Source: Bradyrhizobium sp. ISRA464
GTDB lineage: Bacteria; Pseudomonadota; Alphaproteobacteria; Rhizobiales; Xanthobacteraceae
DNA length: 64,000 nt
NCBI RefSeq assembly: GCF_029910095.1
Contig: NZ_CP094526.1
Location: 5,146,001 to 5,210,000, forward strand
Reading direction: 5' to 3'
A program made the position numbers and the translations under genes. Below are positions 61 to 28,766 of the stretch, in pieces. Numbering within the stretch: the first letter of the stretch is position 1; each line of letters begins with the position of its first letter. Below the pieces are notes generated by a model. It was given only the letters and a program-made list of their open reading frames with translations, was not told the origin of the DNA and made no database searches.

Positions 61-1569
61 TCACAGATAGTCTTCAAAGGTGTCGCATTGCGCGCGCGTC
101 AGGTGCAGGCCGTGCTTGGTGCGTCTTTCGAGAAAGTCTGCGGGCCTTGCCGCCCATTCCGTCTCGCGGAGGTAGACGGCTTCGCGTTCATAGAAATTCC
201 CACCGAAGTGACGGCCGAGATCGGCAACACCGCGTGCCGATCCAAGGAGATCGCGTGCGCGCGTACCATACAGGCGCGCATAGTGATGGATTACCTGTTG
301 AGGCAGATCGGGATAGGCGCGCGCCAGGTCCGTCGCAAAGTCCTCGAAGGTGCTGCCGATGTCGCCGCCCGGCAGTGGCTTTCGCGCCGTCCACGCCGAT
401 GACATTCCGGGAAACCAGGGCGCCAATCGACCAAGTGCGTGCTCGGCGAGCCGGCGATAGGTCGTGATCTTACCACCGAAGATCGCCAGAAACGGCGGTT
501 GTTCCGTCGTTCCATGGACTTCGAAGACATAGTCTCGCGTAACCGCGGAGGGATCCTCGGAATTATCGTCATACAATGGTCGAACGCCTGAAAAGGCGTG
601 CACGATGTCGCCCTCACATGGCGAAGCACGAAAATAGCGGCGCAGTACCCCGAGCAGATAGGCAATCTCGCCGCCGTCAATCGCGACGTCCTCCGCGCGG
701 CCGTCATAGGGAATATCCGTCGTCCCGATCAGCGCGAGATCGTCCTCATAGGGGTTGACGAAGATGACGCGGCGGTCCTCGTTCTGAAGCAAATAGGCCT
801 GCGGACCGCTCCAGAATTTTGGCACGATAACGTGGCTTCCCTTGACCAGCCGCACATTGTGCGCCGGGTTCAACCCTGCGACGCCCTGCACGACATCTCG
901 GACCCACGGGCCTGCCGCATTGACAAGCGCACGCGCACGCACCACCTGCGGGCAGCCGTCCTCGCCCAGCATGTCGAGGCGCCAGTTCTCTCCCTCCCGC
1001 CGGGCGCCCACCGCGCGCGTCCGCGGCAATATCTTGGCGCCGTTACTGGCGGCATCGATCAGATTGAGGATCACGAGTCGCGCATCGTCGACCCAGCAAT
1101 CCGAATACTCGAAGCCGCGACGGAATTCCGGGCGTAGCGGAGCGCCTTCGGGCGCCTGAGTCAGATCGAGCCCGCGGCTCGGCGGCAGCTGCTTGCGGCC
1201 ACCGAGATGGTCGTAGAGAAACAGCCCGGTCCGCACCAGCCACGCCGGCCGCTGCTCGGGTGAATGCGGCAGCACGAAGCGCATCGGCCAGATGATGTGC
1301 GGCGCCGAGGCCAGCAGCACCTCCCGCTCGATCAGGGCCTCGCGGACCAGACGAAATTCGTAGTATTCGAGGTAGCGTAGCCCGCCATGCACGAGCTTGC
1401 CCGAGCGCGACGACGTGCCCTCGGCAAAGTCATCCTTTTCGCACAGCAGAACCTTGAGGCCCCGGCCAGCCGCATCCCGGGCAATGCCGGCCCCATTGAT
1501 GCCGCCACCGATGATTGCGACATCGACGAGCCCGTGGTCACGGCCCGTACCCGGTGCAGCCGCGGTCAT
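61..1569 (-). CDS. GlpD-like FAD-dependent (polyol/glycerol) phosphate dehydrogenase
   Basis: A 502-residue flavoprotein of the glycerol-3-phosphate dehydrogenase family, which oxidises a polyol phosphate to a ketose phosphate and passes electrons to the quinone pool at the inner membrane. The N-terminal Rossmann motif GGGINGAG (residues 21-28) and the following GTSSRSGKLVHGGLRYLE stretch are typical of GlpD and of the erythritol-phosphate dehydrogenase EryB. I chose the ATG at 1569 because it overlaps the stop of the aldolase gene (ATGA) and the FAD motif follows at normal distance; a longer open frame upstream has no family similarity. It is the last visible gene of the region A operon, next to an EryA-like kinase, so a polyol phosphate other than glycerol 3-phosphate is quite possible. 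Confidence 0.88.
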   Translation of the reverse strand: MTAAAPGTGRDHGLVDVAIIGGGINGAGIARDAAGRGLKVLLCEKDDFAEGTSSRSGKLVHGGLRYLEYYEFRLVREALIEREVLLASAPHIIWPMRFVLPHSPEQRPAWLVRTGLFLYDHLGGRKQLPPSRGLDLTQAPEGAPLRPEFRRGFEYSDCWVDDARLVILNLIDAASNGAKILPRTRAVGARREGENWRLDMLGEDGCPQVVRARALVNAAGPWVRDVVQGVAGLNPAHNVRLVKGSHVIVPKFWSGPQAYLLQNEDRRVIFVNPYEDDLALIGTTDIPYDGRAEDVAIDGGEIAYLLGVLRRYFRASPCEGDIVHAFSGVRPLYDDNSEDPSAVTRDYVFEVHGTTEQPPFLAIFGGKITTYRRLAEHALGRLAPWFPGMSSAWTARKPLPGGDIGSTFEDFATDLARAYPDLPQQVIHHYARLYGTRARDLLGSARGVADLGRHFGGNFYEREAVYLRETEWAARPADFLERRTKHGLHLTRAQCDTFEDYL

Positions 1570-2303
1570 CGCGTCCCGCTGCGCTTCTTCGCGACCTGTC
1601 GGCGGGCTGCGGCTTTCTCGGCAGGGCGCGCCTTCGCGGACTTTGGCTTCGGCGCCTGGAGACCATAGGTCGAAAATCCCTGTGCCGTCTCCGCGATCTG
1701 TTCCTGGCTGAGAATGTGCGGCGTCTCGAGCGCGAGCGAGAGATAATATTGACGCGCGATGGTTTCGAGCTCGACGGCCAGCCACATCGCCTTGTCCAGG
1801 TTGGGGCCGACGGCAATCATGCCGTGATTTGCCAGCAGGCAGCCGTTGCGGCCTTCGAGTGCGGCGAGTGCGAGCTCGGACAACTCCGGCGTGCCGTAGC
1901 GCGCATAACCTGCGCAGCGAATGTCATGGCCGCCGAACGCGGCCATCATGTAGTGACAGGCGGGAATCGACTTGCGCGCGATCGCAAGCACGGTGGCGTA
2001 GGTCGAATGGGTATGCACGACGCTGCCGACGTCGGGCCGGCCGCGCACGATATCGAGATGGAACCGCCATTCGGTGGACGGCTGCAGCGGCCCCTCCCAG
2101 GAACCATACTCGCCCTCGAGCGGCATCGATGCGATCATCTCGGGCTTCATCGCCTCATAGGGCGTGGCCGACGGCGTGATCAGCATCCTGTCCCTAAAGC
2201 GGGCGGAGATGTTTCCTGACGTTCCCTGGTTGAGACCCGACGCATTCATCCACCGGCACTTGGCGATGATCGCTTCGCGCAGCTGTCGTTCCTCGCGGGT
2301 CAT
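1566..2303 (-). CDS. Class II aldolase (fuculose-phosphate aldolase / adducin family), copy 1
   Basis: A 245-residue zinc-dependent class II aldolase. The expected metal and catalytic residues are visible: E78 (in STEW), H97 and H99 (in VVHTHS) and H160 (in LLANHGMIA), at nearly the spacing of L-fuculose-1-phosphate aldolase. Such enzymes cleave a ketose phosphate to dihydroxyacetone phosphate plus an aldehyde; relatives act as epimerases or decarboxylases, so the reaction is not certain. The ATG at 2303 gives an N-terminus colinear with the second copy at 26994-27671, with 124 of the first 160 residues identical by hand count and no gaps. Unlike that copy it has a C-terminal tail rich in Lys, Arg and Ala (about residues 218-245), possibly disordered. 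It overlaps the GlpD-like gene by 4 bp. Confidence 0.88.
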   Translation of the reverse strand: MTREERQLREAIIAKCRWMNASGLNQGTSGNISARFRDRMLITPSATPYEAMKPEMIASMPLEGEYGSWEGPLQPSTEWRFHLDIVRGRPDVGSVVHTHSTYATVLAIARKSIPACHYMMAAFGGHDIRCAGYARYGTPELSELALAALEGRNGCLLANHGMIAVGPNLDKAMWLAVELETIARQYYLSLALETPHILSQEQIAETAQGFSTYGLQAPKPKSAKARPAEKAAARRQVAKKRSGTR

Positions 2304-2322
2304 ATCAAGGCACCTTTCGTCT

Positions 2323-3363
2323 TCAGCACGGATTGAGCGGCGGTTCGCCGGCCAGAAAGCGGCGAACCTCCTCTGCCGCCTGGTCGGCAGCAAACGTCAC
2401 GGTGCGCACGGAAGCGCCGGCGATATGCGGCGTCAGCGTGACATTGGGCAATTGCAGCAGCGGCCAGTTGGCCGGCACCGGCTCGACCGCAAATGTGTCA
2501 AGCATCGCGCCGCCAAGCCGTCCTGCGGACAAGGCTTCGTAGAGCGCCTCATAGTCGACCAGTGGGCCGCGAGCAGTATTGATGAAGAACGCATCCGGCT
2601 TCATCCGTGCGAGCGCCGCATGGTCGATGAATCCGGTTGTCTCGGCCGTCACCCTTGCGTGCAGGCTGACCACGTCGGCACGCGCCAAAAGGTCTGCCAG
2701 GGCCACATGCTCGACGCCGTCGTTACGGTCCTGCGCAGTGAGCTGAACATAGGGATCGGCCACCAGGACCTTGCAGCCGAACGCCTTGAGCAACTTCACC
2801 ACTCGGCTGCCGATCGCGCCATAGCCGACAATACCGACAGTCATCTCGCCGAGCTCGCGCCCGGTACGGTCGGCGCGATAAAGGTCGCCGCGCCATTCAC
2901 CGGCGCGCAAGGATTCATGTCCGCCCCGGATCAGCCGCGTCTCGGCCAGAATGGCGCCGATCGTGAACTCGGCCACCGCGCTGGCGTTGCGGCCTGGGGT
3001 GTTGACGACAAGCACCCTGTGATCCCGCGCGGCCTGCATGTCGATATTGACGGGGCCACCCCGCGAGACCGCGATGAATTTGAGGTTCGGCAATCGCTCC
3101 AGCATCGATCGCGAAATCGGCGCCAGATGGGTCACAAGCATCGGCGCGTCAGCGATGAAGTCGGCAATCTCCTTTGGATCGCCCATGAATTCCTTCAATC
3201 CATCAAGCTTGGAGCCTGCATAGCCATGCTCCATCGGCTCGTCTGGCCATGGCTGCTCCAGGACGCGAATATCGATCGCGCCGCCGCAGGCCGCGGTGAT
3301 CCGCTCGGCAAAGACCGACGGCAGCATGAAGCGGTCACCGATGATGGCGATGGTGCTAGACAT
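2323..3363 (-). CDS. D-isomer-specific 2-hydroxyacid dehydrogenase
   Basis: A 346-residue NAD(P)-dependent 2-hydroxyacid dehydrogenase of the D-isomer-specific (SerA/glyoxylate reductase) family. The Rossmann motif GYGAIG is at residues 180-185, and the catalytic triad is visible as R265 (INTARGPLVD), E294 (FAVEP) and H313 (TPHIAGA). The ATG at 3363 overlaps the kinase stop by 8 bp, indicating translational coupling. In this operon it could process a two- or three-carbon acid, such as glycolate/glyoxylate derived from glycolaldehyde released by the aldolase, or a sugar acid; this is inference. No ACT domain is present, so a role in serine synthesis is unlikely. Confidence 0.87.
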   Translation of the reverse strand: MSSTIAIIGDRFMLPSVFAERITAACGGAIDIRVLEQPWPDEPMEHGYAGSKLDGLKEFMGDPKEIADFIADAPMLVTHLAPISRSMLERLPNLKFIAVSRGGPVNIDMQAARDHRVLVVNTPGRNASAVAEFTIGAILAETRLIRGGHESLRAGEWRGDLYRADRTGRELGEMTVGIVGYGAIGSRVVKLLKAFGCKVLVADPYVQLTAQDRNDGVEHVALADLLARADVVSLHARVTAETTGFIDHAALARMKPDAFFINTARGPLVDYEALYEALSAGRLGGAMLDTFAVEPVPANWPLLQLPNVTLTPHIAGASVRTVTFAADQAAEEVRRFLAGEPPLNPC

Positions 3364-4936
3364 GGCTACCTCCTGCACGCAGCGCCGCGAGTTGTTTCCA
3401 GACGGGCCGCGCGGCCAGCCTTGCGTCGAGATAGGCCGGGAACATCCGGGAATAGTGCGAAGCCAGATCCAGATCGTGTGTTTGCGCCGGGTTGAGACAA
3501 GGCTTCACCCAATCCTCGGCGCACGCCGCCATGTCCGGATATATGCCGGTGGCAACCGCAGCGATCATGGCAGCGCCCGCTGCGCCGGCTTCGCCGCGGC
3601 TGCAAACGCGGACATTGCACTCAAGTGCAGCGCCCAGGATGGCGCCGAGCGCGCGACTTCGCGCCGCACCGCCGGTGATCCGCAAGTCACGCGGCAACGA
3701 GCCCATGGCGGCATAGCAATCACGTGCGGCGAAGGCGAGCCCTTCCATCACTGCTCGCATCAGGTCCCAATAGCCGTGACGCGAGCGCAACCCCAGGAAT
3801 TGGGCACAGGCTTCATGCGAGACGAACGGACCACGTTCGCCCGCATCCGAAATGAATGGATGGAACAGCAGTTCACCGGGCCGCGCCTCCAGCACTCGCT
3901 CATCCAATCGCCGGATCAGATCGGCGCGCGATCGCGTCACTCCCTCCGCGGCCAGGAGGTCGCGTGCAAGATCGATTAGCCAATCGATGTTCAGCGTTGC
4001 AGCCATATTGGACTGCATCTGCGCATAGTGACCGGGGACAGGGAACGGCATGGTATAGCCGGTGGCCTCGGCATTCAGAACGACCGCATCAGCGGTTGGT
4101 GTCAGCCGCATGTGCATGCCGGTTGAACCGATGATGGTGCAGCCGACGTCCGGCGCCGGATCGTACAGTCCGGCCCCCAACGCATTGCAGATCACGTCGA
4201 CATAACCGAGCGAAACCGGCACGCCCTGCGGCAGTCCGGTCTCCCGCGCGGCCCCGATGCTTAGCGGATGCGTCGTCGAGACACCGTCGACGACCTCGGG
4301 AAAAAGGGCCGTACAATCGGTGATGCCAATGAGCCTCGCAGTTTCCACATCAAAGCCGCGCTTGCGGAAATTCCCGCACGTAAAGCTCGCTTCCGACGGA
4401 TCGGTCGCGCGCTGGCCGGTGAGCAGAAAATAGAGCCAGTCCTTGCAGTGAAAGGCCGTCCTTGCCCGCGACAGCGTCTCGGGCGCGTGGTCTTGCAGCC
4501 AGGCCAGCTGGGCGCCCTGCTGGCAGGCATTCAACCCCGAGCCGGTCCGCTGATAGAGCGCCGCGTTGCGATCGCTGGAGCGGATGTCCTCCACCAGGCC
4601 CGCCGCTCGGGAATCCAGCCAGAGCAGCGCGGGCGCGACCGGACGACCATCGTCATCGATGAGCCATGTGCCGTCGCCCTGCCCTGTGACTGCGATCGCC
4701 GCGATCCGCGACGCGAAATCCGGCACAGCCGCCGCCAGACCACGCAACGCCGCAACGGTGTCGTTCCAGGTCCGGGCCATATCCTGCTCGACCCGTCCGC
4801 CCGGCGACGTGCTGTACGTATTGGGCAGCGAGAAGTCGGCGAGCTGTCGCCCTTCTCGCGTGAAGGCGACGGTCTTGATCAGGGATGTTCCGGCATCGAT
4901 GCCGATGATCACGTCGCGGCTCTGCGGGATGGACAT
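3356..4936 (-). CDS. FGGY-family carbohydrate kinase, erythritol-kinase-like
   Basis: A 526-residue FGGY kinase that would use ATP to phosphorylate a polyol or ketose after uptake. The N-terminal phosphate-binding motif IGIDAGTS (residues 11-18) and the C-terminal adenosine motif ITGGAARSRALG are present, with the probable catalytic Asp in GYVDVICNALGAG. The opening residues and the company of a GlpD-like dehydrogenase and a SorC-family regulator resemble EryA of the Brucella/Rhizobium erythritol system. Against a plain erythritol pathway, no EryC, TpiB or RpiB is seen here. The gene begins 2 bp after the upstream ATPase ends and overlaps the next gene. Family confidence is high, substrate confidence low. 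Confidence 0.88.
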   Translation of the reverse strand: MSIPQSRDVIIGIDAGTSLIKTVAFTREGRQLADFSLPNTYSTSPGGRVEQDMARTWNDTVAALRGLAAAVPDFASRIAAIAVTGQGDGTWLIDDDGRPVAPALLWLDSRAAGLVEDIRSSDRNAALYQRTGSGLNACQQGAQLAWLQDHAPETLSRARTAFHCKDWLYFLLTGQRATDPSEASFTCGNFRKRGFDVETARLIGITDCTALFPEVVDGVSTTHPLSIGAARETGLPQGVPVSLGYVDVICNALGAGLYDPAPDVGCTIIGSTGMHMRLTPTADAVVLNAEATGYTMPFPVPGHYAQMQSNMAATLNIDWLIDLARDLLAAEGVTRSRADLIRRLDERVLEARPGELLFHPFISDAGERGPFVSHEACAQFLGLRSRHGYWDLMRAVMEGLAFAARDCYAAMGSLPRDLRITGGAARSRALGAILGAALECNVRVCSRGEAGAAGAAMIAAVATGIYPDMAACAEDWVKPCLNPAQTHDLDLASHYSRMFPAYLDARLAARPVWKQLAALRAGGSHV

Positions 4937-4938
4937 GG

Positions 4939-6054
4939 TCAGACTGCCTCCGCATGGCGAATGCAGGCTCCGTCGGCGCCGAAAATATGAAGATGCTGCG
5001 GCTCCAGCGCGAACGAAACGATGTCTCCAGGCCGCGCCGCGACTCGGCTCGGCGTTACCGCGATCAGGACGTTACCCGCGCATTCGCCGGCGACATGCGA
5101 TTGGTCGCCCAGCCATTGATTGGACATCACGCGTACCCGCGCCTCGCCCGCTCCAACCGCAATCTTCTGCGGCCGGATACCGACACGAACCCGCTTGTTC
5201 TGCTCAAGCACTCGCCGCGCGCTCTGGTCGAGCGTGCCGCCCGGAAGGTGGAATGTCATGTCCGAGCCGACCGACAGCCGGAACCCACCATCCGCGGCCG
5301 CCACATCCGTCTCGAGCAGGTTCATCGGCGGCTCGCCGATAAAGCTTGCCACGAACAGGTTCGCAGGTCGGCTCTTCAATTCCTTTTCACTCGCGAACTG
5401 CTGGAGCACGCCGTCCTCCATCACGGCGATGCGGTCGGCGAGCGCACTCGCTTCTGTCTGATCATGCGTGACGAAGATCGCGGTCATGCCGCGCTCGGCC
5501 AGCAGGCCCTTGATCCGCCCGCGCAGCACGGCGCGCAGCTGAGGCTCGAGTTGTCCCATCGGCTCGTCGAGCAGATAAAGATCCGCGTCGCGGACCAACG
5601 CCCGCGCCAGCGATACACGTTGCTGCTGGCCGCCCGAGATCGAGCGCGGATACATGTCGAGCGTATCCTCGATCTCGACCAGCCGCGCGATCGCATCGAC
5701 ACGGCGCGAGGCCTCGCTGTACGAAAGCTGCTGCGCCTTCAGCGCAAAGGCGATGTTCTCGCGAACCGTGAGCGGCGGGTAGAGCGAGTAGCCCTCGAAG
5801 GCCATCGCAACCTTGCGCCTGGCCGGCGGCAGTTCGTCGATGCGCCGCTGGCTCAGCGTAATCGCTCCCGAGGTCACGCTTTCAAAACCTGCAATCATGC
5901 GCAAGGTCGAGGTCTTGCCGCAGCCCGAGGACCCCAGGAGCGCTACGATCTCGCCCTTTCCCACTTCCATATCGAGTGCGCGCACGGCGTGGACGGGCGG
6001 TTTGCCGCGACTGCGGTAGACTTTGTCGACATTCCGGATTTCGAGCATGCCCAT
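4939..6054 (-). CDS. ABC transporter ATPase, first of an asymmetric pair
   Basis: A 371-residue sugar-type (UgpC/MalK-like) ABC ATPase with a C-terminal TOBE region. Walker A is GSSGCGKT (41-48), the signature is ISGGQ (139-143), Walker B ends in LLDE with E164, and the switch His is H197 (FVTHDQ). Two conserved positions differ from the norm: the Q-loop Gln is Glu (E87, in AFEGYSLYP instead of FQNYALYP), and the D-loop reads GQLE instead of SNLD. It is paired with a second, differently degenerate ATPase just upstream, as in the two-ATPase GlpS/GlpT glycerol importer of rhizobia. It should energise the importer formed with the two permeases and binding protein at 7180-10534. Confidence 0.9.
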   Translation of the reverse strand: MGMLEIRNVDKVYRSRGKPPVHAVRALDMEVGKGEIVALLGSSGCGKTSTLRMIAGFESVTSGAITLSQRRIDELPPARRKVAMAFEGYSLYPPLTVRENIAFALKAQQLSYSEASRRVDAIARLVEIEDTLDMYPRSISGGQQQRVSLARALVRDADLYLLDEPMGQLEPQLRAVLRGRIKGLLAERGMTAIFVTHDQTEASALADRIAVMEDGVLQQFASEKELKSRPANLFVASFIGEPPMNLLETDVAAADGGFRLSVGSDMTFHLPGGTLDQSARRVLEQNKRVRVGIRPQKIAVGAGEARVRVMSNQWLGDQSHVAGECAGNVLIAVTPSRVAARPGDIVSFALEPQHLHIFGADGACIRHAEAV

Positions 6055-6071: not shown

Positions 6072-7175
6072 TCAAGCCGCCTGTCGCCGATCGGGCTGAC
6101 CGACGCGGAGCCCGGTCGCGCGATCGAACAGGAGCGCGGCCTGCGGCGCGAACCGAACGAATACATCCTCATCGGCACTTCCCGGCGAGGCATCCGGCGG
6201 TAGCGCGGCCAACCATTCGGAGCCGTCGGCGAAGCGCAGCAGCAACACGGCCCGCTCGTGCATTGGTGTGATCGCAACGATCCGGGCGGGAATGGTGTCA
6301 TCGCCAGGATCGCGGCTGATCGCAAGATCATCAGGACGAACACCGAGCCAGCATGGACCATGATTGGCCGGCTGATCAGTCGAATCGAGCCGCACTCTCG
6401 TCCCCGCTATCTCGGCGCTCAGACCCCCCTGCCCGACCCGAGGCTCGACTTCGGCAAGATTGATGCTGGGATCGCCAAACAGCCGCGCGACCGCGACCGA
6501 TGCCGGCCTTGCATAGACCTCCTCCGGTCGCGCGAGCTGAACAAGCTGCCCGCGAACCAGGACGGCGATCCGATCCGCAATCGCCATCGCCTCGCGATAG
6601 TCCTGCGTGACATAGAGAACCGCAGCGGAGCTCCGGCGCAAGAGGCTCGGCAACTCCAGTCGCATCTCGTAGCGAAGCTTTGCATCGACGTTGCGAAGCG
6701 GGTCATCCAGCAAAAGCACATCCGGATTGCCAATCAGAGCGCGCGCGAGCGCAGTGCGCTGCTTCTGCCCGTTCGACAACTCGCGGGGCATGTGGTCAAG
6801 GACATGCTCGATCTTCAGAAGCTTGCTGATCGACTTGACCCGCGAGGTGACGTCTGCATCACCTGCCTTCTTGCGCAGGCCGCTTGCGATATTGTCGCGC
6901 GCCGTCATGTGCGGAAATAGCGCAAAGTTCTGAAAGGCCATGCCGACCCCGCGCCGCTCCGGCGGCGCGCCGACGATCGACCGACCGGCAACCAGGATAT
7001 CGCCTTCGTCGGGCTCGTACATGCCCGCGATCATGCGCAGCAACATGGTCTTGCCGCTGCCCGACGGTCCGAAAACCGCGACGATTTCGCCGGGTTCGAC
7101 GGTGAAGGACAATCCGTCGGCACAACGAACCGGACCGAACGACTTGCCAAGGGCGTTGATGTCAAGACGCGCCAT
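6072..7175 (-). CDS. ABC transporter ATPase, second of an asymmetric pair, catalytically degenerate
   Basis: A 367-residue MalK-like ATPase with a TOBE-type C-terminus. Walker A GPSGSGKT (36-43) and the Q-loop (Q82) are normal. The signature is LSNGQ (133-137) rather than LSGGQ, the catalytic Glu after Walker B is Asp (LLLDDP, D158), and the switch His is Gln (YVTQDY, Q191). These changes predict weak or absent hydrolysis at the site formed by this Walker A/B. It is preceded by two permease genes and followed 17 bp later by its partner, and probably forms a heterodimer with it. This fits an importer with one active and one degenerate nucleotide site. Confidence 0.9.
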   Translation of the reverse strand: MARLDINALGKSFGPVRCADGLSFTVEPGEIVAVFGPSGSGKTMLLRMIAGMYEPDEGDILVAGRSIVGAPPERRGVGMAFQNFALFPHMTARDNIASGLRKKAGDADVTSRVKSISKLLKIEHVLDHMPRELSNGQKQRTALARALIGNPDVLLLDDPLRNVDAKLRYEMRLELPSLLRRSSAAVLYVTQDYREAMAIADRIAVLVRGQLVQLARPEEVYARPASVAVARLFGDPSINLAEVEPRVGQGGLSAEIAGTRVRLDSTDQPANHGPCWLGVRPDDLAISRDPGDDTIPARIVAITPMHERAVLLLRFADGSEWLAALPPDASPGSADEDVFVRFAPQAALLFDRATGLRVGQPDRRQAA

Positions 7176-7179: not shown

Positions 7180-8037
7180 TCAGCCCTTCACCGCACCGAG
7201 CGACAAACCTTCGACTAGATAACGCTGCGCGTAAAGCGCGAGCAGAAGGGTCGGCGTGACTGACAGCACGATCGCTGCCGCGATCTGTCCATATTGGATG
7301 CCGGACGCCGTGACGAACGCCAGCGCACCTACCGTCACCGGTTGCTTGTCGGCGGATGCCAGGATCAGCGCGAAAACAAAATTGTTCCAACAGAAAATGA
7401 AGGACAGGAGGCCCGCCGCCGCGATGCCAGGACCTGCGAGCGGCACTGCGATCCGCGTAAACGTCTCGCGCCAGGAATGTCCGGCCAGGCGGTAGGCGTG
7501 CTCAATGTCAGGGCTGATATCCTCGAAATAGCCGCGCACGATCCACAGGATCAGAGGCAGCGCGATCAGCTGATACACCCAGACGATGCCGAAGTAAGTG
7601 TCGCTGAGCCCGAGCTCCTGGTAGTAGAGCGACAACGGCAGCAGCACGAGCAGCGGCGGCGCGAAACGAAACGACAGCAGCGTGAAGGCGATGGACTCAC
7701 CGAGGCGGAACTTGAAGCGAGCGAAGGCATAGGCCGCCGGCACGCCGAGCAGCAGGGCCAGGATCACCGCCGCGCTCGACAGCACGAAGCTGTTCATGAG
7801 GTTGCGCATGAAGGAGATCTCGAGGTTACCAGCCGTGGTACGAAGCTGCCCCGAGATCAGCGCCTGGTAATTGGCAAGCGTCGGCTCGAACAGGATGCGC
7901 GGCGGGATCCGCAGGATCTGTTCATTGGTCTGGAACGACATCAGGAAGATCCAGACGATCGGGAACATGAAGAACACCAGCACGAGTGCGAGCGCCACGC
8001 CGCGGAAGATGCGACCCGCCAGACTGGAATGATCCAT
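7180..8037 (-). CDS. ABC sugar/polyol transporter permease (MalG type)
   Basis: A 285-residue inner-membrane permease of the CUT1 family with about six membrane segments. The cytoplasmic EAA loop, which contacts an ATPase, is visible as AYRLAGHSWRETFTRIAVP. I chose the ATG at 8037 because GGGGAGG lies at good spacing before it; in-frame starts at 8067 and 8079 would overlap the previous permease. The ATPase gene begins 4 bp after its stop. With the permease at 8054-8986 it forms the membrane channel of the region A importer. Confidence 0.88.
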   Translation of the reverse strand: MDHSSLAGRIFRGVALALVLVFFMFPIVWIFLMSFQTNEQILRIPPRILFEPTLANYQALISGQLRTTAGNLEISFMRNLMNSFVLSSAAVILALLLGVPAAYAFARFKFRLGESIAFTLLSFRFAPPLLVLLPLSLYYQELGLSDTYFGIVWVYQLIALPLILWIVRGYFEDISPDIEHAYRLAGHSWRETFTRIAVPLAGPGIAAAGLLSFIFCWNNFVFALILASADKQPVTVGALAFVTASGIQYGQIAAAIVLSVTPTLLLALYAQRYLVEGLSLGAVKG

Positions 8038-8053
8038 CGCCGCCTCCCCGTCC

Positions 8054-13876: not shown

Positions 13877-13886
13877 GATCCAAACC

Positions 13887-16726: not shown

Positions 16727-17836
<1,110 letters not shown>

Positions 17837-20181: not shown

Positions 20182-20201
20182 ACTGTCTCGTCTCAAAAGG
20201 A

Positions 20202-21823: not shown

Positions 21824-22714
21824 CTACTCCTTGAGAGATCCGAGGGTTAGGCCACGCACAAGCTGCTTCTGGACGAGCAAGATGAAGATGAAGCTCGGGA
21901 TCACGGCCGTCGTGCCGAGGGCAGCGATGAAGCCCCATTCCGAGCCGGTCGACGTGACAAATGTCGTGATCTTGACCGGCAAGGTTCGTATCGAATTGGT
22001 CAGGAACAGCGACAGCAGGAATTCCGTCCACGAGAAGATGAAGCAAAGGACGGCGGTGGCCGCGACACCGCCCTTCACCATCGGCAAGACGACGCGCCAG
22101 AAAATCTGCAATCGCGAGGCGCCGTCGATCATGGCGGCCTCGTCGACGTCGACAGGAACGTCATCGTAGAACGATTTCATCAAGAGCACGGCGATCGGCA
22201 GATTAATCAACGTATCCACGAAGATCAGGCCGAGCCGCGTATCGAGCAGCGACATGTAGTGAAACATGAAGACGACCGGCACGATGATCGCGATCGGCGG
22301 CATGAAGCGCTGCGACAGGATCCAGTTCAGATAGGCCTGCCGCCAGCGGAACCGCATCCGCGACAACGCGTAGGACGCGATCACGGCCAGCAGCACCGTC
22401 AACGCGGTCGCTCCCACCGCTATGATCAGCGAGTCGATGATGGTTTGACGGCTGTCATAGGAACTTGCACCTCCGACCCCAAATGTATTTCCGGACTCGA
22501 TTGCAAGTTCCGCCCGTGACTTGCCGAGCATCGTCACGGCATAGTTCACCAGCGTCGGCTTGAAGTTAAACCAGACGATCTCATCCTTGTTGAAGATCGC
22601 CGAGGTCGGCTTGAACGATGTCAACGCCCACCAGAACAGCGGGAACATGAACACGCCGACCACGAGCACCGCAGCCACGTCACGTAACCGCTTCTGCCAA
22701 AACGTTTCCTGCAT
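21824..22714 (-). CDS. ABC sugar/polyol transporter permease (MalG type), region B
   Basis: A 296-residue inner-membrane permease of the CUT1 family with about six membrane segments and an EAA loop visible as EAAMIDGASRLQIFWRVVLP. Its ATG shares one base with the stop of the upstream permease (TGATG), showing translational coupling. It works with the permease at 22714-23655, the binding protein at 20248-21774 and the ATPase at 16727-17836. Confidence 0.9.
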   Translation of the reverse strand: MQETFWQKRLRDVAAVLVVGVFMFPLFWWALTSFKPTSAIFNKDEIVWFNFKPTLVNYAVTMLGKSRAELAIESGNTFGVGGASSYDSRQTIIDSLIIAVGATALTVLLAVIASYALSRMRFRWRQAYLNWILSQRFMPPIAIIVPVVFMFHYMSLLDTRLGLIFVDTLINLPIAVLLMKSFYDDVPVDVDEAAMIDGASRLQIFWRVVLPMVKGGVAATAVLCFIFSWTEFLLSLFLTNSIRTLPVKITTFVTSTGSEWGFIAALGTTAVIPSFIFILLVQKQLVRGLTLGSLKE

Positions 22715-23655
22715 CAGAACCGCACCTTGAACAGCTTGATGAAGATGCTTGAAGTGACGATCACGAGGAGCAGCGTGAATAGCGAGATCGTCGAGGCATA
22801 GGGAAAGTCCGCGTTCTTGAAGTAGATGGTGCCGGCGTAGGACGTCAGGGTCTCGGTGGCGGTGCCTGGTCCGCTGTCCGTCATCACCTTCACGTAATCA
22901 TAGATGCGGAACAGATCGACTCCACGGATCAGAACGGCGAGCGCAATGATCCTGGAGAGCATCGGCAGGGTCAGACGGAAGAAGGCCTGGCTCGGGGTCG
23001 CTCCGTCGATCGCGGCGGCCTCGAAAGGCTCCTTCGGCAAGGCGCGAAGCCCGGCGAGCATGATCAGCACCATGAAGGGCGTCCACTGCCAGATGTCAGC
23101 GAGCAGAATGCCGGCCAGTGCCGAACCGCTGGAGGCAAGTATGGGATACTGCGGTGGCCAGAGTCCGAGCGAAACCAGGCCCATGCTCAACACGCCGAAA
23201 GACCCGTCCAGCATCAGCAGGAACATCATGCCGGTGACCGCGGGCGGCACCACCAGCGGCAGCGTCATCAGCGCCCGGAGCGATCCGTACCCCTTCCGGT
23301 CGCTGTCGAGCAGCAGAGCGATGGCGAGGCCAAGGCAAAGTTCAATCAGCAGGGCTGTGATCGTGTAAAGATAGGTGTGCCCGATCGCGCCCCATACCCG
23401 TTCATCGGCGAGCAGCTTTCCCCAATTCCAGGTCGGATTGAAGACGTTCATACGCGTGATCGGATTGCGCTTGAAGAACGAGAGCCACAGCGCATACAGA
23501 AGCGGATAAACACCGAATGCCAGAAGCAGCGCGGTAATCGGCGCCAGCCACGGGAACGGGTGTTCCGAGGTCAGAAACCGTGGCCAGACGCTGCGCCGCG
23601 TCGTGCTCGATACCTGCACGTCGACAGCCAGACTCTGCGCATGGTGCGAAACCAT
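22714..23655 (-). CDS. ABC sugar/polyol transporter permease (MalF type), region B
   Basis: A CUT1 permease of about 313 residues with six predicted membrane segments and EAA loop FEAAAIDGATPSQAFFRLTL. I prefer the ATG at 23655 because GAGGAAA lies at good distance before it; the ATG at 23673 is also plausible. A still longer frame to 23766 would overlap the end of the SorC gene. It is probably co-transcribed with that regulator. Confidence 0.87.
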   Translation of the reverse strand: MVSHHAQSLAVDVQVSSTTRRSVWPRFLTSEHPFPWLAPITALLLAFGVYPLLYALWLSFFKRNPITRMNVFNPTWNWGKLLADERVWGAIGHTYLYTITALLIELCLGLAIALLLDSDRKGYGSLRALMTLPLVVPPAVTGMMFLLMLDGSFGVLSMGLVSLGLWPPQYPILASSGSALAGILLADIWQWTPFMVLIMLAGLRALPKEPFEAAAIDGATPSQAFFRLTLPMLSRIIALAVLIRGVDLFRIYDYVKVMTDSGPGTATETLTSYAGTIYFKNADFPYASTISLFTLLLVIVTSSIFIKLFKVRF

Positions 23656-23722
23656 TGACGTTTCCTCGCGCATTGCTTTTCTCTCGGCGCCGGGCTCTGT
23701 CGGCCCGGTTCGCTTTTTCGCT

Positions 23723-24760
23723 TCAGGGCCGGCGTAATACTCCGGATCGGTGAGACCGGCCCGCACGCGGCACCAGCGCCCTTGCTGTCGCTACGTCCGT
23801 GACCAGAATTGTTGCATAGTTATTGTTGAGCGCAGCATAGACTGCATCGATCTTGTCGCTGCCGCCAGCAATGCAGATACGTTCGGGCACCTTGGCGATC
23901 TCGTCGAGGGTCAGGCCGATCATCTGGTTGTCGAGCGCGCCCAGGATCGGCTTCCCTTCCCTGTCGATGAAGCGCCCGCTCACAACGCCGACGGCGCCGC
24001 GCGCCAGGTACGGCGCAATCTTCTCCGGCGTCATGTAGCCGCTGCGCATCGCGGTGCCGGCGTCGTCGACGCTGCCGACACCGAACAGCACCTTGTTGCT
24101 CGAGTGGATGATCTTGAAGGTCTCGACCAATGCCGGCTCCTGCATGAACAGGCGCTTGATCTGGGCGGTCGACACGATGCCGGGCGCATGCAGGTTGACG
24201 CAACGCGCCCCAAGGCGGTTAGCGATGTTGGACGTGCACAGCTCCGGCGAAAATTCCGTGGTCCCGATCGAGCAGCCGGTAATCTGGGCGACGGTCACGC
24301 CGGGAAGCTTCATTTCGGGCAGCGACGCCGACAGCGCCTGTACGGTGCGGCCCCAGGAGACCCCGAGCACATCGTCGGGCTGCAGCCGCTCGATCAGGAG
24401 ACGCGCGCCGGCCATGCCGATCCGCTCGTGCACCGGTAAGCGGCCTCCGTCGTCAGGCACAACGAGACAGCTCGTGAGCCCGTACGCATCGGCCAGCTCG
24501 CGCCCAAGGCCGATGGTCTGCAGGTGCCGCGACGAGACCGCGATCGTGACGATGTTGCGGTCGCGCGCTTCTTGCAGGAAGTTCACCACCGAAGCACGCG
24601 AGACGCCGAGCTGATCGGCAACCTCCTCCTGCGTCATGCCCTCTTCGTAATAGAGCCACGCCGCCCACACGACAGGATCGCTGTCAAACTCCGCCGGAAT
24701 CGACAGCGCCCTGCGCTTGATCCGCGGCGGCGTCACTTGGCGTTGCAGCGTTCTGGTCAT
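23723..24760 (-). CDS. SorC/DeoR-family sugar-binding transcriptional regulator, region B
   Basis: A 345-residue SorC-family regulator. The helix-turn-helix lies near residues 40-60 (GMTQEEVADQLGVSRASV), and the rest is the sugar-phosphate-sensing domain, with VLGVSWGRTVQAL, VGSVDDAGTAMRSGY and GGSDKIDAVYAAL near the end. The ATG at 24760 fits the family; an in-frame extension to 24907 would run across the divergent promoter region. It faces the G1PDH-like gene across a 140-bp region holding a perfect palindrome. It is the likely local controller of both arms of region B, with an effector that is probably a phosphorylated intermediate. Confidence 0.88.
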   Translation of the reverse strand: MTRTLQRQVTPPRIKRRALSIPAEFDSDPVVWAAWLYYEEGMTQEEVADQLGVSRASVVNFLQEARDRNIVTIAVSSRHLQTIGLGRELADAYGLTSCLVVPDDGGRLPVHERIGMAGARLLIERLQPDDVLGVSWGRTVQALSASLPEMKLPGVTVAQITGCSIGTTEFSPELCTSNIANRLGARCVNLHAPGIVSTAQIKRLFMQEPALVETFKIIHSSNKVLFGVGSVDDAGTAMRSGYMTPEKIAPYLARGAVGVVSGRFIDREGKPILGALDNQMIGLTLDEIAKVPERICIAGGSDKIDAVYAALNNNYATILVTDVATARALVPRAGRSHRSGVLRRP

Positions 24761-24805
24761 CAGCGATCCGGCCTCAGCATCGACATTCACAAAATGCACA
24801 CCGTG

Positions 24806-24819
24806 TTGACAATTGTCAA
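24806..24819. promoter_or_regulatory. Candidate SorC operator: perfect 14-bp palindrome
   Basis: TTGACAATTGTCAA is a perfect palindrome in the divergent region between the region B SorC gene and the G1PDH-like gene. It contains a TTGACA -35 box on each strand. Related half-sites follow: ATTGCCAAT at 24833-24841 and TTGTCAAATGTCA from 24846. A regulator bound here would cover both -35 elements. Confidence 0.6.
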
Positions 24820-24834
24820 TCATCCCGGTTAATT
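24806..24834 (+). promoter_or_regulatory. Candidate sigma-70 promoter for the G1PDH-SDR-aldolase operon
   Basis: TTGACA at 24806-24811 is followed after 17 bp by TTAATT at 24829-24834, a weak -10 box. The start of transcription would lie near 24841. The same palindrome also offers TTGACA on the minus strand, with CATTTT 17 bp away, for the SorC/transporter operon. Confidence 0.45.
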
Positions 24835-24900
24835 GCCAATACGTTTTGTCAAATGTCACGATCAGGGCGCGACGCCGATGGTGCGGCGCGGGATTTGCCG

Positions 24901-26220
24901 ATGCCAAAGCACAACTGGACCGCGCTGATCGACGATCTGGTGGCTGGCCGCTGGATCAATCCGCTCACCGGCGCGCCGGTAAAGGTGCCCTACGATTCCA
25001 TCGTGATCGAAGACAGCCTCGAGGGTCGTGAGGCTGAACTGGTCGCATCCCTGAAATTGGGGCATCGCCTTGCCGTGGTCGCCGACCAGGCAACCTACGC
25101 GGCGATGGGGGCGCGCATCGCCAGGGCGCTGCGCGAACTCGGTCCGATCGAGGCCATCGTGCTGGATCATCCCCACGCCGACATGGCCGAGGTTCGCAGC
25201 CTTACGGAGAAGCTGCGCGGATTCGATGCCGTCGTCGCCGTCGGATCCGGTACGGTCAACGATCTCTGCAAGTATGTTACGGGCTTGGACGGCCGGCGCT
25301 ATTGCGTCTTTGCCACCGCCGCCTCGATGAACGGCTATACCTCCTCCACGGCTTCGCTTACGCTTGACAGCGGCTTGAAGGTGTCGCTGCCCTCGCACAC
25401 GCCTGCCGGCTTCTTCGTGGACCTCAAGGTGTCCGCCGCGGCGCCGCCTCACCTCGCCGCCTCCGGTTTCGCGGATTGCCTGGCCCGTTCGGTCGCACAG
25501 ACCGATTGGTGGATGTCGCATCGGCTATTGGGAACGGCCTACTTCCAGGAGCCCTACACAATCCAGGCCGCCGATGAAGTCGAGCTCAACAAGCGCGCCG
25601 GGAATCTGCCCAAAGGCGACATCGAGGCGATGGGGTATCTCTATCGTGTGCTAACCTTGTGCGGCCTCGGCATCTCCTTCACCGGGGTTTCGCACCATGG
25701 CTCGATGGGCGAACATCAGATCTCCCACTACATCGATTGCTTTGCAGGCGAACGGCATCCGGGCAGCCTGCACGGCCAGCAGGTGGGCATCGCGTCATTG
25801 AGCATGGCGCGGCTGCAGCAGCAGATGCTCGCCGCCGACCGGCCGCTTTCGGTTCACGCGACGAACATCGACATAGCCGGCATGAAGCGCCGTTTTGGCG
25901 ACGAAGTCGCCTCCCAATGCGTGGCTGAGTTGAAGCAGAAGGCTTTCGACCGTGAAGGAGCCAGCGCATTCAACCGCAGGCTCGAGAATGTGTGGCCGGA
26001 GCTTCGCCGTGAGCTCGCCGCCTTCACGATTCCGGTCGGCGAGATGAAGCGGCTGTTATCGGCCGCCGGCGGCGCCACGACCGCTGCCGAACTCGGCGTG
26101 CCCGTGGATCTCTATCGCGAAGCGATCATGCATTGCCGGGAGATGCGTAACCGCTTTTCGTTCCTCGACATTGCGGCAGATGCCGGAACGCTGGAGGCAT
26201 TTGCGCAAGGCGAACTTTGA
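24901..26220 (+). CDS. sn-glycerol-1-phosphate dehydrogenase-like (AraM/EgsA family) NAD(P)-dependent alditol phosphate dehydrogenase
   Basis: A 439-residue member of the iron-containing/glycerol-1-phosphate dehydrogenase superfamily. The nucleotide-binding segment VAVGSGTVNDLCKY and FATAASMNGYTSSTAS are characteristic. Metal ligands are probably the Asp of GFADCLARS and the His residues of SHHGSMGEHQISHY and SLHGQQVG. Relatives interconvert sn-glycerol 1-phosphate and dihydroxyacetone phosphate; AraM sits in an arabinose operon in Bacillus, so sugar-catabolic roles are known. Here, with kinase, SDR and aldolase, it probably oxidises a polyol phosphate. The start is uncertain: ATG 24901 is used, but ATG 24853 is in frame and would add 16 residues. 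Confidence 0.87.
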   Translation: MPKHNWTALIDDLVAGRWINPLTGAPVKVPYDSIVIEDSLEGREAELVASLKLGHRLAVVADQATYAAMGARIARALRELGPIEAIVLDHPHADMAEVRSLTEKLRGFDAVVAVGSGTVNDLCKYVTGLDGRRYCVFATAASMNGYTSSTASLTLDSGLKVSLPSHTPAGFFVDLKVSAAAPPHLAASGFADCLARSVAQTDWWMSHRLLGTAYFQEPYTIQAADEVELNKRAGNLPKGDIEAMGYLYRVLTLCGLGISFTGVSHHGSMGEHQISHYIDCFAGERHPGSLHGQQVGIASLSMARLQQQMLAADRPLSVHATNIDIAGMKRRFGDEVASQCVAELKQKAFDREGASAFNRRLENVWPELRRELAAFTIPVGEMKRLLSAAGGATTAAELGVPVDLYREAIMHCREMRNRFSFLDIAADAGTLEAFAQGEL

Positions 26221-26235: not shown

Positions 26236-26961
26236 ATGACTGCGAAACCGTTGATCGCCGTGACCGGTGCCAGTTCAGGTATTGGAGAAGCGACCGCCCG
26301 CGCCTTCTCGGCAGCGGGCCACCCTGTTCTGCTGATGGCCCGCCGGATCGAGCGGCTGGATGCCATGCGCCTGCCCGATTCAGTTTGCCGGCAGGTAGAC
26401 GTGCGTGATCGCGCGGCGCTGGCCGCCGCGGTGCGGGACGCCGAAGCAAAGTTCGGCCCGGTCGACATGATGTTCGCCAATGCCGGCGTTGCCCGGCTGG
26501 CGGATATCGGCAAACAGGACCCGGCCGACTGGGATGAAATGATCGCCATCAACGTCAATGGCGTCATGAACAGCGTCCACGCCGTCATGTCGGGCATGAT
26601 GGAGCGGCGCCACGGCACGCTCGTGATGATGAGCTCGATCGCGGGACGCAAGGTCTATCCCGATCATACGGTCTACTGCGGCACCAAGTACTTCGTGCAC
26701 GGCGTCTCGGAGAGCCTTCGCGAATACCTGTCCAGCTACGACGTCCGCGTCCTCGTCATTTCGCCCGGCATCATTGAGACCGAGGTGCTTGACGGCGTGA
26801 AGGATCCGGGGACGCTCGCCAACTACAAGGCAAACAAGGCGGCCATCGGCGGCGGCATCGGGGCCGAGCACGTCGCCAAGCTCATCCTTGATGCCTACAA
26901 CCTCCCGCAAAATGCGCTGGTGCAGGAGATCTGCATCACGCCGACCCGGCAAAAATATTGA
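26236..26961 (+). CDS. Short-chain dehydrogenase/reductase (SDR)
   Basis: A 241-residue classical SDR using NAD(P). The cofactor motif TGASSGIG is at residues 10-17, NAG at 82-84, and the catalytic residues are S134, Y147 and K151. It lies 15 bp after the G1PDH-like gene and is followed by a class II aldolase, so it is part of the same operon. Likely a polyol or sugar oxidoreductase acting before or after phosphorylation; the exact substrate cannot be told. Confidence 0.9.
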   Translation: MTAKPLIAVTGASSGIGEATARAFSAAGHPVLLMARRIERLDAMRLPDSVCRQVDVRDRAALAAAVRDAEAKFGPVDMMFANAGVARLADIGKQDPADWDEMIAINVNGVMNSVHAVMSGMMERRHGTLVMMSSIAGRKVYPDHTVYCGTKYFVHGVSESLREYLSSYDVRVLVISPGIIETEVLDGVKDPGTLANYKANKAAIGGGIGAEHVAKLILDAYNLPQNALVQEICITPTRQKY

Positions 26962-26993: not shown

Positions 26994-27671
26994 ATGACCA
27001 ACACCGAACTTCAGCTGCGCGAGGCAATCATCGCGAAATGCCGCTGGATGAATGCCACCGGGCTGAACCAGGGGACGTCCGGGAACATCTCGGCGCGCTA
27101 TGGCAACACCATGCTGATCTCGCCGTCCGCAACGCCTTACGAGTCGCTGACCCCCGACATGATTGCGGCGATGCCGATCGACGGCGAATACGGATCATGG
27201 AGGGGCCCGCTCAAGCCCTCCACCGAATGGCGCTTCCACCTCGACATCATGAAGGCGCGGCCCGATGTTGGAGGCATCGTCCACACCCATTCGACCTACG
27301 CCACCGTGCTGGCGATCGCGCGCAAGGAAATCCCGGCGTGCCACTACATGATGGCGGCATTCGGCGGCATGAACGTGCGTGTCGCCGGCTATGCGAGGTT
27401 TGGCACCAAGGAGTTGTCCGAGCATGCGCTCAAGGCCCTCGACAATCGAACCGCCTGCCTGCTTGCCAACCACGGGATGATCGCAACGGGGGCATCGCTG
27501 GACAAGGCGATGTGGCTGGCCGTTGAGCTCGAGACGATCGCCCGGCAGTATTATCTCACTCTGGCAATCGGTGGGCCGGTGCTGCTGAACGAGGCGGAGA
27601 TCAGCGAGACCGCCGCCGCATTCGGCAGCTACGGCGTGCAGGATCCGCCTGTCGAGAATTCACGAGCATAG
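26994..27671 (+). CDS. Class II aldolase (fuculose-phosphate aldolase / adducin family), copy 2
   Basis: A 225-residue class II aldolase with metal-site residues E78, H97, H99 and H160, numbered exactly as in copy 1 at 1566-2303. The first 160 residues align without gaps at 124 identities. The ATG at 26994 has AGGAG upstream. It closes the G1PDH-SDR-aldolase operon. The close similarity suggests regions A and B cleave the same or stereochemically related ketose phosphates to dihydroxyacetone phosphate plus a small aldehyde. Unlike copy 1 it lacks the basic C-terminal tail. Confidence 0.9.
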   Translation: MTNTELQLREAIIAKCRWMNATGLNQGTSGNISARYGNTMLISPSATPYESLTPDMIAAMPIDGEYGSWRGPLKPSTEWRFHLDIMKARPDVGGIVHTHSTYATVLAIARKEIPACHYMMAAFGGMNVRVAGYARFGTKELSEHALKALDNRTACLLANHGMIATGASLDKAMWLAVELETIARQYYLTLAIGGPVLLNEAEISETAAAFGSYGVQDPPVENSRA

Positions 27672-27682: not shown

Positions 27683-27838
27683 CTAGCAACTGGCCTCGCT
27701 CGGCCGGCGAATGCAAGGACCGCGATGACAGTGGGCTGGTGTCTCAGCTCCTCCCTCGATGCGGTCGGCGCGGATCAAATAGCTGCCCTCGGGAAGAACC
27801 ACGGTAGGCGACAGCAGTTGCGGCAGGCCGACATCGCG
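27683..27838 (-). pseudogene. Possible remnant of a cupin-domain gene
   Basis: Between the aldolase and the beta-hydroxyacid dehydrogenase a minus-strand frame reads, near its end, VVLPEGSYLIRADRI and AETPAHCHRGPCIR. This looks like the metal-binding start of a cupin barrel (a RADR segment followed by H-x-H-x-GP). There is no complete gene: the frame stops at 27683 and the second half of the barrel is absent. I read it as a degraded cupin fragment; chance similarity is possible. Confidence 0.35.
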
Positions 27839-27878
27839 ACGCGGCGGCCCGCCGCCTTGCCGCTCCGCCCTTGTCGCG

Positions 27879-28766
27879 TCAGGACGGCTTGGCCCAATTC
27901 TGGTACATGGCCAGCAACGCGACGATATCCTGACCGCGAAAGCCCTCGGCCAGCGCGAGTGCATAGAGCTCGCGAGTAGCCGACGCCGATGGCGTCGGCA
28001 TCCGGGTCATTCGTCCGAGCTCGACGCCGAGCGCCAAGTCCTTCTCGCCAAGCTCCATCTTGAAGCCCGGTGAGAAATCACCCTTCAGCGCGTTCGGGAA
28101 GCGCTTGGTGAAATGGTGCGAGCGGCCGCCGCTCACCGACAGCACGTCGTAGAGCTTCTCCGGCTCGACACCGGCAGCCACTCCGAGGGCGAAGGCTTCC
28201 GCGGCAACCAGCACATTGCCCATCGACATCATGTTGTTGACGATCTTGACGACCTTCGCTGTGCCGACGGGACCTGTGTACTTCCAGTCGGTACCGAGCA
28301 GCTTGAGGATGGGTTCGGCCCGTTTCACGTCTGCCTCTTCACCACCCGCGATCAGGATCAGCTTGCCGGCGCGCGCCTCGTTGGGGCTGCCGCTGACGGG
28401 ACAATCGACGACGGCGATGCCACGCGCGGCAGCGGCGCCGGCAGCCTGGCGCATCGTCTGCGGATCGATGGTGCTGAGCTCGATGCACAACGTGCCCTTG
28501 GCGGCGTGTGCGACGATTCCCTCGGCGCCGAGCCAGGCCTCGGTCACGGCCTTGGGATCAGGCAGGCTCGTCAACACCAGCGTCCGGCCGTCCAGCGCCT
28601 CCGCAATGCTCGACGCCATCCGGAAGCCGTCCTTGGCGAGGCGAGCCCGCTGGTCGGCGCTGACGTCGTAACCAACAACGTCGACGCCGGATTCTTTCAG
28701 GCGCCCCGCCATCCCGGATCCCATCTGTCCCATTCCGATGACCGCGACCTTCTCCGACATGGGCAT
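27879..28766 (-). CDS. NAD(P)-dependent beta-hydroxyacid dehydrogenase (3-hydroxyisobutyrate dehydrogenase family)
   Basis: A 295-residue beta-hydroxyacid dehydrogenase. The Rossmann motif is AVIGMGQMGSGMAG (GMGQMG at 11-16), the substrate-binding segment is DCPVSGSP, and the catalytic Lys lies in KVVKIVNNMM. The family includes 3-hydroxyisobutyrate, tartronate-semialdehyde and L-threonate dehydrogenases, so a sugar-acid role fits the surroundings. It converges on the region B aldolase operon and has its own promoter region at 28767-29103. ATG 28760 is an alternative start two codons in. Confidence 0.88.
   Translation of the reverse strand: MPMSEKVAVIGMGQMGSGMAGRLKESGVDVVGYDVSADQRARLAKDGFRMASSIAEALDGRTLVLTSLPDPKAVTEAWLGAEGIVAHAAKGTLCIELSTIDPQTMRQAAGAAAARGIAVVDCPVSGSPNEARAGKLILIAGGEEADVKRAEPILKLLGTDWKYTGPVGTAKVVKIVNNMMSMGNVLVAAEAFALGVAAGVEPEKLYDVLSVSGGRSHHFTKRFPNALKGDFSPGFKMELGEKDLALGVELGRMTRMPTPSASATRELYALALAEGFRGQDIVALLAMYQNWAKPS

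Follow-up and report, generated by a model that had tools for sequence, protein, structure and literature searches.

The 64,000-nucleotide window analyzed here covers positions 5146001-5210000 of the single 8.46-Mb contig of Bradyrhizobium sp. ISRA464 (64% G+C). Family searches placed three units, A, B and C, between positions 61 and 27671, and these may encode two polyol catabolic loci that act on opposite configurations at carbon 2 (C2) of their substrates. Unit A, all on the minus strand, encodes a SorC regulator, a solute-binding protein, two permeases and two ATPases of an ATP-binding cassette (ABC) transporter, an FGGY kinase, a 2-hydroxyacid dehydrogenase, a FucA-like aldolase and a GlpD-family dehydrogenase. 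Unit C, on the plus strand and divergent from A, comprises an FGGY kinase, a HAD-IIA phosphatase and a class II aldolase-family protein. Unit B has a minus-strand arm (SorC regulator, two permeases, binding protein, FGGY kinase, HAD-IIB phosphatase, ATPase and, as end gene, a GMC oxidoreductase) and a plus-strand arm (AraM, a short-chain dehydrogenase/reductase (SDR) and a second FucA-like aldolase). A first-pass annotation had described two linked polyol loci; it overlooked the third cassette (11739-14918, plus strand) and did not mention the two SorC regulators, the two ABC transporters, the 2-hydroxyacid dehydrogenase or the HAD-IIB phosphatase. The genes are as follows, with identities to Sinorhizobium meliloti where matched.

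61 to ~1569, minus: EryB-type polyol-phosphate dehydrogenase (GlpD/DAO family), 792 bits with NCBIfam PRK13369 (cut-off 352); the start is the first Met ahead of the family match
1566-2303, minus: FucA-like class II aldolase A, 66% to S. meliloti FucA, metal-site motifs retained
2323-3378, minus: 2-hydroxyacid dehydrogenase, putative RbtA, 71.2% to the gene that separates eryA from fucA in S. meliloti
3356-4936, minus: FGGY kinase, EryA, 58.1% to S. meliloti Ak57 EryA and 53% to R. leguminosarum EryA
4939-6054, minus: ABC ATPase (Mpt), by family match, 57% to the S. meliloti counterpart
6072-7175, minus: ABC ATPase (Mpt), by family match, 49% to the S. meliloti counterpart
7180-8079, minus: ABC permease (Mpt), by family match; unmatched in S. 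meliloti, where its counterpart falls in an unannotated gap
8054-8986, minus: ABC permease (Mpt), by family match, 75% to the S. meliloti counterpart
9095-10534, minus: solute-binding protein MptA, 70.5% to S. meliloti Ak57
10557-11594, minus: SorC-family regulator EryD, 57.5% to S. meliloti EryD
11739-13019, plus: cassette C FGGY kinase, putative RbtB by order and identity (50.6% to S. meliloti Ak57)
13016-13876, plus: cassette C HAD-IIA phosphatase, putative RbtC by order and identity (44.9% over 138 aa only)
13887-14918, plus: cassette C class II aldolase/epimerase-family protein, putative LalA by order and identity (47.4%)
14968-16692, minus: GMC oxidoreductase (choline-dehydrogenase-like), by family match, end gene of unit B in Bradyrhizobium
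16727-17836, minus: ABC ATPase (UgpC type) of unit B, by family match
17852-18655, minus: HAD-IIB phosphatase of unit B, by family match
18652-20196, minus: FGGY kinase of unit B, by family match, not EryA-like (26%)
20248-21774, minus: solute-binding protein of unit B, by family match
21824-22714, minus: ABC permease of unit B, by family match
22714-23766, minus: ABC permease of unit B, by family match
23723-24907, minus: SorC-family regulator of unit B, by family match, start probably 24760
24853-26220, plus: AraM-family dehydrogenase (Fe-ADH_2, Pfam PF13685, 130 bits, cut-off 28), start probably 24901
26236-26961, plus: SDR oxidoreductase, by family match
26994-27671, plus: FucA-like class II aldolase B, 69% to S. 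meliloti FucA

A plus-strand open reading frame at 10656-11732, without a Pfam match, overlies the unit A regulator. Past the GlpD of unit A, the chromosome carries unrelated genes.

Units A and C have a counterpart in the S. meliloti Ak57 locus (L115; compared loci and genomes carry L and G numbers), found by searching annotated plasmids with the A kinase. Of the 13 proteins that units A and C encode in the window, twelve match this locus at 45-75% identity. The genes eryD to eryB lie there in the same order as in unit A, followed by the aldolase, kinase and HAD genes of cassette C. In Ak57, the cassette is co-directional, runs aldolase-kinase-HAD, and is followed by EryC, EryR, TpiB and RpiB, whereas the window cassette is divergent and runs kinase-HAD-aldolase, and searches of the genome returned neither EryC nor RpiB.

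The text of Geddes et al. (2013; PMC3599248) describes a class of loci without EryC, EryR and TpiB that includes those of Bradyrhizobium BTAi1 and ORS278. The Bradyrhizobium-type adonitol/L-arabitol locus in that text and units A and C appear to share EryD, MptABCDE, EryA, RbtA, FucA, EryB, LalA, RbtB and RbtC, and both lack EryC, EryR and TpiB in the locus. The same text reports that adonitol (ribitol) and L-arabitol are further substrates of EryA and MptABCDE in S. meliloti, and assigns lalA and rbtABC to these two polyols. Window identities, calculated against strain Ak57 whereas the published cut-offs refer to Rm1021, exceed the cut-offs in that text for EryA (58.1%; 46%), EryD (57.5%; 44%) and MptA (70.5%; 56%), and for RbtA (71.2%; 50%) provided that RbtA is the 2-hydroxyacid dehydrogenase. 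EryB, at 64.4%, is just under its cut-off of 65%. The three adjacent genes of cassette C give 47.4% for LalA (49%), 50.6% for RbtB (51%) and 44.9%, over 138 aa only, for RbtC (40%); the names RbtA, LalA, RbtB and RbtC are putative, drawn from gene order and these cut-offs. Units A and C appear from their sequences to be a known, published type of locus, the Bradyrhizobium-type pentitol locus, and by homology the substrates of unit A would be ribitol and L-arabitol. The earlier statement that the substrates are unknown was therefore too pessimistic for A; for B, every reaction is inferred.

The classical erythritol pathway (EryABC-TpiB-RpiB), which the first-pass annotation had excluded, is not present. 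No EryC, TpiB or RpiB was found among the genes of 61-33254, as had been claimed. Across the whole genome, there was no match to S. meliloti EryC (a search without a positive control) and no RpiB family member (positive controls were detected), and a TpiB query returned a single triose-phosphate isomerase, 36% identical and outside the window. EryR was absent from the window genes to 33254 and from ~9 kb beyond GlpD; no genome-wide EryR search was made.

The pairing of an EryA-like kinase with a GlpD-type flavoenzyme in unit A, also claimed earlier, was upheld. The GlpD-family enzyme is 64.4% identical to EryB of S. meliloti Ak57 and 63% to R. leguminosarum pRL12 EryB. In a tree it groups with EryB (support 0.985), and the genome's second GlpD is placed elsewhere. 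That second GlpD, at 7.085 Mb, is 53% identical to the unit A enzyme and adjoins two UgpC-type ATPases. A role for the unit A enzyme as the glycerol GlpD was rejected, given the separate gene at 7.085 Mb and the split in the tree; by homology, the unit A enzyme is an EryB. The second GlpD lies within L142:2182-7856 with the two ATPases and two further genes, a set that resembles a rhizobial glycerol uptake locus.

Unit B pairs its FGGY kinase with an AraM-type enzyme, again as first described. Pfam Fe-ADH_2 and an AraM-like fold are present in the window AraM, and its closest fold and hidden Markov model are those of sn-glycerol-1-phosphate (G1P) dehydrogenases. G1P dehydrogenase is best known from archaeal lipid synthesis, and several annotated records give this name to AraM relatives. 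A scan of named genomes returned 126 AraM relatives; the analysis used the 80 best, so that the sample leans to close relatives. In an alignment to G1P dehydrogenases, the Asp-His-His metal site is kept in 80 of 80 AraMs. The motif ahead of the metal His is altered in all 80, and the Asp of SxDG in 74. The window AraM has SMNG in place of SxDG, and HHGSMGEH in place of the P(A/C)SG(G/A/S)EH of aligned solved chains. The Ni-dependent G1P dehydrogenase AraM of B. subtilis (9h4x) differs from it in the same way, with SxDG where the window enzyme has SxNG, and with SRPASGGEH at the metal His against (N/H)HGSMGEH in B-locus AraMs; the latter, unlike B. subtilis AraM, lie in a polyol-type locus with an FGGY kinase. 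Seven more distant relatives were added to the alignment, of which two (L022 and L023) were usable and five, in the wrong frame or badly aligned, were left out.

If AraM were an ordinary G1P dehydrogenase, as its closest fold and model would suggest, it could work with the HAD phosphatase to drain surplus dihydroxyacetone phosphate and NADH to glycerol, and the real pathway would consist of the SDR (polyol to ketose), the kinase (ketose to ketose phosphate) and the aldolase. This is rather unlikely given the altered motifs and a score of just 135 bits with the G1P dehydrogenase model PRK00843, whose cut-off is 413. We tentatively propose a new activity for the B-locus subfamily, an NAD(P)-dependent polyol-1-phosphate 2-dehydrogenase of sn-1 sense that would be to AraM as EryB is to GlpD. 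Together with EryB loci, it would enable alphaproteobacteria to convert both C2 epimers of a polyol series to the same ketose-1-phosphate, with the linked FucA or RhaD marking the ribitol/D-arabitol or the L-arabitol/xylitol series.

AraM relatives occur in Rhizobium, Mesorhizobium, Sinorhizobium, Aureimonas, Rhodobacteraceae and others; among the matches listed, Bradyrhizobium proteins are nearest, with four of the first five loci. Gene content was compared in the 59 loci with at least 19 kb of DNA (21 of the 80 have less and were left out), with presence set by identity thresholds that we chose. The kinase is found in 58 of these loci, HAD and the ATPase in 56 each, SDR and the binding protein in 55 each, and the regulator and each of the two permeases in 54. 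The joint occurrence of AraM and HAD in 56 of 59 loci would suit the draining of surplus to glycerol. The same idea gains from the SDR, among whose 569 solved relatives ribitol 2-dehydrogenase is listed, though lower down; a "blue fluorescent protein" ranks first, ahead of clavaldehyde dehydrogenase, with a sulfoacetaldehyde reductase fifth. Unit B appears to be a widespread locus of its own. No AraM-centred polyol locus was found described in the titles and abstract openings of the open-licence literature searched; term searches found no mention of arabitol, xylitol, ribitol or erythritol in PMC9007349, and the words AraM, glycerol-1-phosphate, alcohol dehydrogenase, threitol and xylitol are absent from the main text of PMC3599248. 

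The carbon-carbon enzyme is the variable part of B loci. A FucA-like aldolase is present in 22 of 59, a RhaD-type aldolase fused to an SDR (NCBIfam PRK08324 in L114) in 25, and both in four. The two types avoid each other (Fisher p 0.006), but the pattern tracks the AraM tree (seven and six changes), and this p value is therefore too small. Associations of GlpD with FucA (p 0.16) and RhaD (p 0.11) among the 59 loci are not significant. Another possibility is that AraM reduces the aldehyde released by the aldolase (glycolaldehyde to ethylene glycol), for which the ribulose-1-phosphate aldolase pathway of H. salinarum offers a precedent: there (PMC9700705), the reductase is a protein annotated as a G1P dehydrogenase. 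That haloarchaeal non-carboxylating pentose bisphosphate pathway combines, as B would, a ribulose-1-phosphate aldolase, a G1P-dehydrogenase-like enzyme and a phosphatase; unlike B, it starts from nucleosides, has no polyol kinase, and uses its dehydrogenase as a glycolaldehyde reductase. Against the haloarchaeal model for ribulose-1-phosphate aldolase (cut-off 300), the two window aldolases reach no more than 158-164 bits. Such a role for AraM is quite improbable, because AraM scores 29.3 bits with the haloarchaeal glycolaldehyde reductase model NF053832 (cut-off 550) against 135 for the G1P dehydrogenase model, and because it persists where the aldolase has its own fused dehydrogenase (25 of 59 loci). 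It also persists in the 16 loci without a linked aldolase of the types sought, and FucO-type folds score lower against it (28.8 against 42.9).

Linkage of A and B is supported both physically and evolutionarily. Among 146 genomes of the genus, including that of ISRA464, the A kinase occurs in 28 and a close AraM (at least 88% identity) in four; the A kinase is found in all four genomes with a close AraM and in 24 of the 142 others (p 0.0011, a guide value since the genomes are related). A fifth AraM, at 52%, was scored as absent in this test. A and AraM are 20 kb apart in G000, 37 kb in G217, 50 kb in G255 and 1.8 Mb in G166. In G255, order and orientation are those of the window, with ~31 kb separating unit C from the GMC gene, and in G217 unit B lies on the opposite side of A. 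Outside the genus, A genes lie within 10 kb of AraM in six of 80 loci (L069, L102, L107, L108, L111 and L113), and the C kinase within 10 kb in seven; the latter is present in six of the 59 full-flank loci, with five state changes on their AraM tree. In L108 and L111, the EryA-RbtA-EryB genes adjoin B without FucA between them, and a FucA gene is inside B. These observations bear out the earlier claim of two linked polyol-type loci with GlpD-type and AraM-type dehydrogenases. A housekeeping role for AraM was rejected: it is found in five of the 146 genus genomes, one of them the 52% match in a genome 67% complete. Across the order, 13 of 150 genomes, including that of ISRA464, carry it (E < 1e-100).

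The two FucA-like aldolases are identical at 124 of their first 160 residues, exactly as first reported, and at 163 of 225 overall. Both loci were said to end in an aldolase; there are indeed two, but the final gene of operon A is that of GlpD, and the aldolase gene precedes it. In an alignment with E. coli FucA, both aldolases keep the Glu and three metal His and the active-site Tyr motifs. They score 198 and 194 bits with the L-fuculose-1-phosphate aldolase model TIGR01086 (cut-off 400). Recent exchange of the twins between loci was considered and not seen: in a tree of six A-copy and seven B-copy rows (L036 and L133 having the same sequence), the Bradyrhizobium A and B copies form separate clades (0.974 and 0.992), and one Fulvimarina B copy stands beside the Bradyrhizobium B clade. 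FucA is present in unit A of all five further genus genomes inspected.

FucA-type aldolases take 3R,4R ketose-1-phosphates such as D-ribulose-1-phosphate, and RhaD-type aldolases take 3R,4S substrates such as L-xylulose-1-phosphate; both families act on 6-deoxyhexulose-1-phosphates. The last property would be in keeping with a unit B that handles longer polyols or their derivatives (hexitols, deoxyhexitols), with glyceraldehyde or lactaldehyde as the aldehyde and the C2-C4 handedness left as in the pentitol scheme below. If glyceraldehyde were turned into glycerol, the presence of glycerol-type GlpDs in B loci would make sense. The linkage of B to the tetritol/pentitol locus A and cassette C points the other way, and we regard longer substrates as improbable.

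The pentitol scheme rests on handedness. With the phosphate drawn on top, GlpD takes a right-hand C2 hydroxyl (sn-3 sense) and AraM a left-hand one (sn-1 sense). Among the polyols of the S. meliloti EryA/EryB locus, erythritol is right-right, ribitol right-right-right and L-arabitol right-right-left. The sense of AraM is that of the corresponding C2 epimers, D-threitol, D-arabitol and xylitol, and the two members of each pair yield a single ketose-1-phosphate. Ribitol in the EryB sense and D-arabitol in the AraM sense yield the same D-ribulose-1-phosphate, and L-arabitol and xylitol yield the same L-xylulose-1-phosphate. The sn-3 sense of EryB is taken from its GlpD family. We suggest, with a probability of roughly 0.45, that the window holds two polyol catabolic loci of opposite C2 handedness, A with C as the pentitol locus and B for the C2 epimers. 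In A and C, whose reactions are assigned by homology, MptABCDE would import the polyol, EryA would phosphorylate one end, and EryB would oxidize the neighboring carbon in the sn-glycerol-3-phosphate sense to give a ketose-1-phosphate, to be passed on by RbtB, RbtC, LalA and possibly FucA. In B, a dedicated transporter and FGGY kinase would supply a polyol-1-phosphate of sn-glycerol-1-phosphate sense, the AraM-subfamily NAD(P) enzyme would oxidize its C2, and the SDR would take the aldehyde; a weak suggestion is that the SDR as an aldehyde reductase would suit glycolaldehyde. As an alternative to cleavage, the HAD phosphatase could strip the phosphate so that a kinase can rephosphorylate the other end, and the pathway may finish by either route. 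The FucA-type aldolases in both A and B would point to D-ribulose-1-phosphate, and hence to D-arabitol as a first guess for the candidate substrate of B.

Several observations weigh against this scheme of opposite handedness. At position 160, six of the 80 AraMs retain an Asp as in G1P dehydrogenases, and three of these six come from loci that have all five of the core genes checked. GlpD is present in 21 of 59 B loci; EryB-type enzymes account for just two of the 17 tree rows from AraM loci. Those two, from L108 and L111, belong to the adjoining A unit. Twelve of the 17 form one clade (0.999) that joins the genome's second, glycerol-type GlpD (0.952); the L081 and L089 enzymes lie near this clade without support, and that of L105 lies outside (29 loci were chosen for the tree, and L069 gave no usable row). 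That most GlpDs in B loci are glycerol-like would favor AraM as an ordinary G1P dehydrogenase, and is a warning that part of B may handle glycerol phosphates. FucA is kept in unit A of G195 and G156, which gave no AraM match, and so does not depend on B. Cleavage by an aldolase is weakened by the 16 of 59 B loci without a linked aldolase of either type sought, and by the S. meliloti fucA gene, which PMC3599248 reports to be dispensable for erythritol, adonitol and L-arabitol; for the same reasons, the proposed convergence of both routes on dihydroxyacetone phosphate through the aldolases is not supported in its original form. Finally, the solved structure closest to the B binding protein, a remote match, is 5iai, a ribitol rather than D-arabitol complex (PMC8468352). 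The binding protein of another B locus (L064) scores about equally with 5iai, which is thus no proof of ribitol for B. Assigning substrates from the binding proteins was rejected, since the nearest solved chains are remote for both B and A (4rya, named sorbitol-binding, for MptA).

The AraMs with Asp at position 160 come from L101, L106, L107, L108, L111 and L113, of which L107, L108, L111 and L113 have A genes beside B. Rhizobial B operons (L041, L058, L064, L114 and others) combine AraM, a glycerol-type GlpD and the RhaD-type aldolase fused to an SDR. Mesorhizobium loci L039, L040, L042, L044-L047, L049, L053 and L090 have the core B genes and a second SorC regulator ~30% identical to the A regulator, but neither an aldolase nor a GlpD of the types sought is linked to them. 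The GMC gene closes unit B in five further Bradyrhizobium loci where the end is visible (L034, L035, L036 = G255, L038 and G217); among the remaining loci compared, only L071 has a match, at 36% and in a different position. Directly after unit B, at 27879-28766, lies an NAD_binding_2/3-hydroxyisobutyrate-dehydrogenase-like gene whose product has its top NCBIfam score, under the cut-off, with sulfolactaldehyde 3-reductase; it has no match beside unit B in L034-L036 and L038. Positions 29002-33254 hold a CLC chloride channel with a CBS domain, followed by a GntR/UTRA regulator and a second GMC oxidoreductase.

Fungi, lichens, plants and algae commonly contain sugar alcohols, and the gene content suggests that this pair of loci would let the host use sugar alcohols that differ at one carbon. 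The handedness rule would give sharp predictions of growth substrates from gene content. If AraM is truly a polyol-phosphate dehydrogenase, many genomes would carry a misleading annotation of it as a G1P dehydrogenase, and it would become testable what AraM does in a sugar operon of B. subtilis, for which we know of no explanation.

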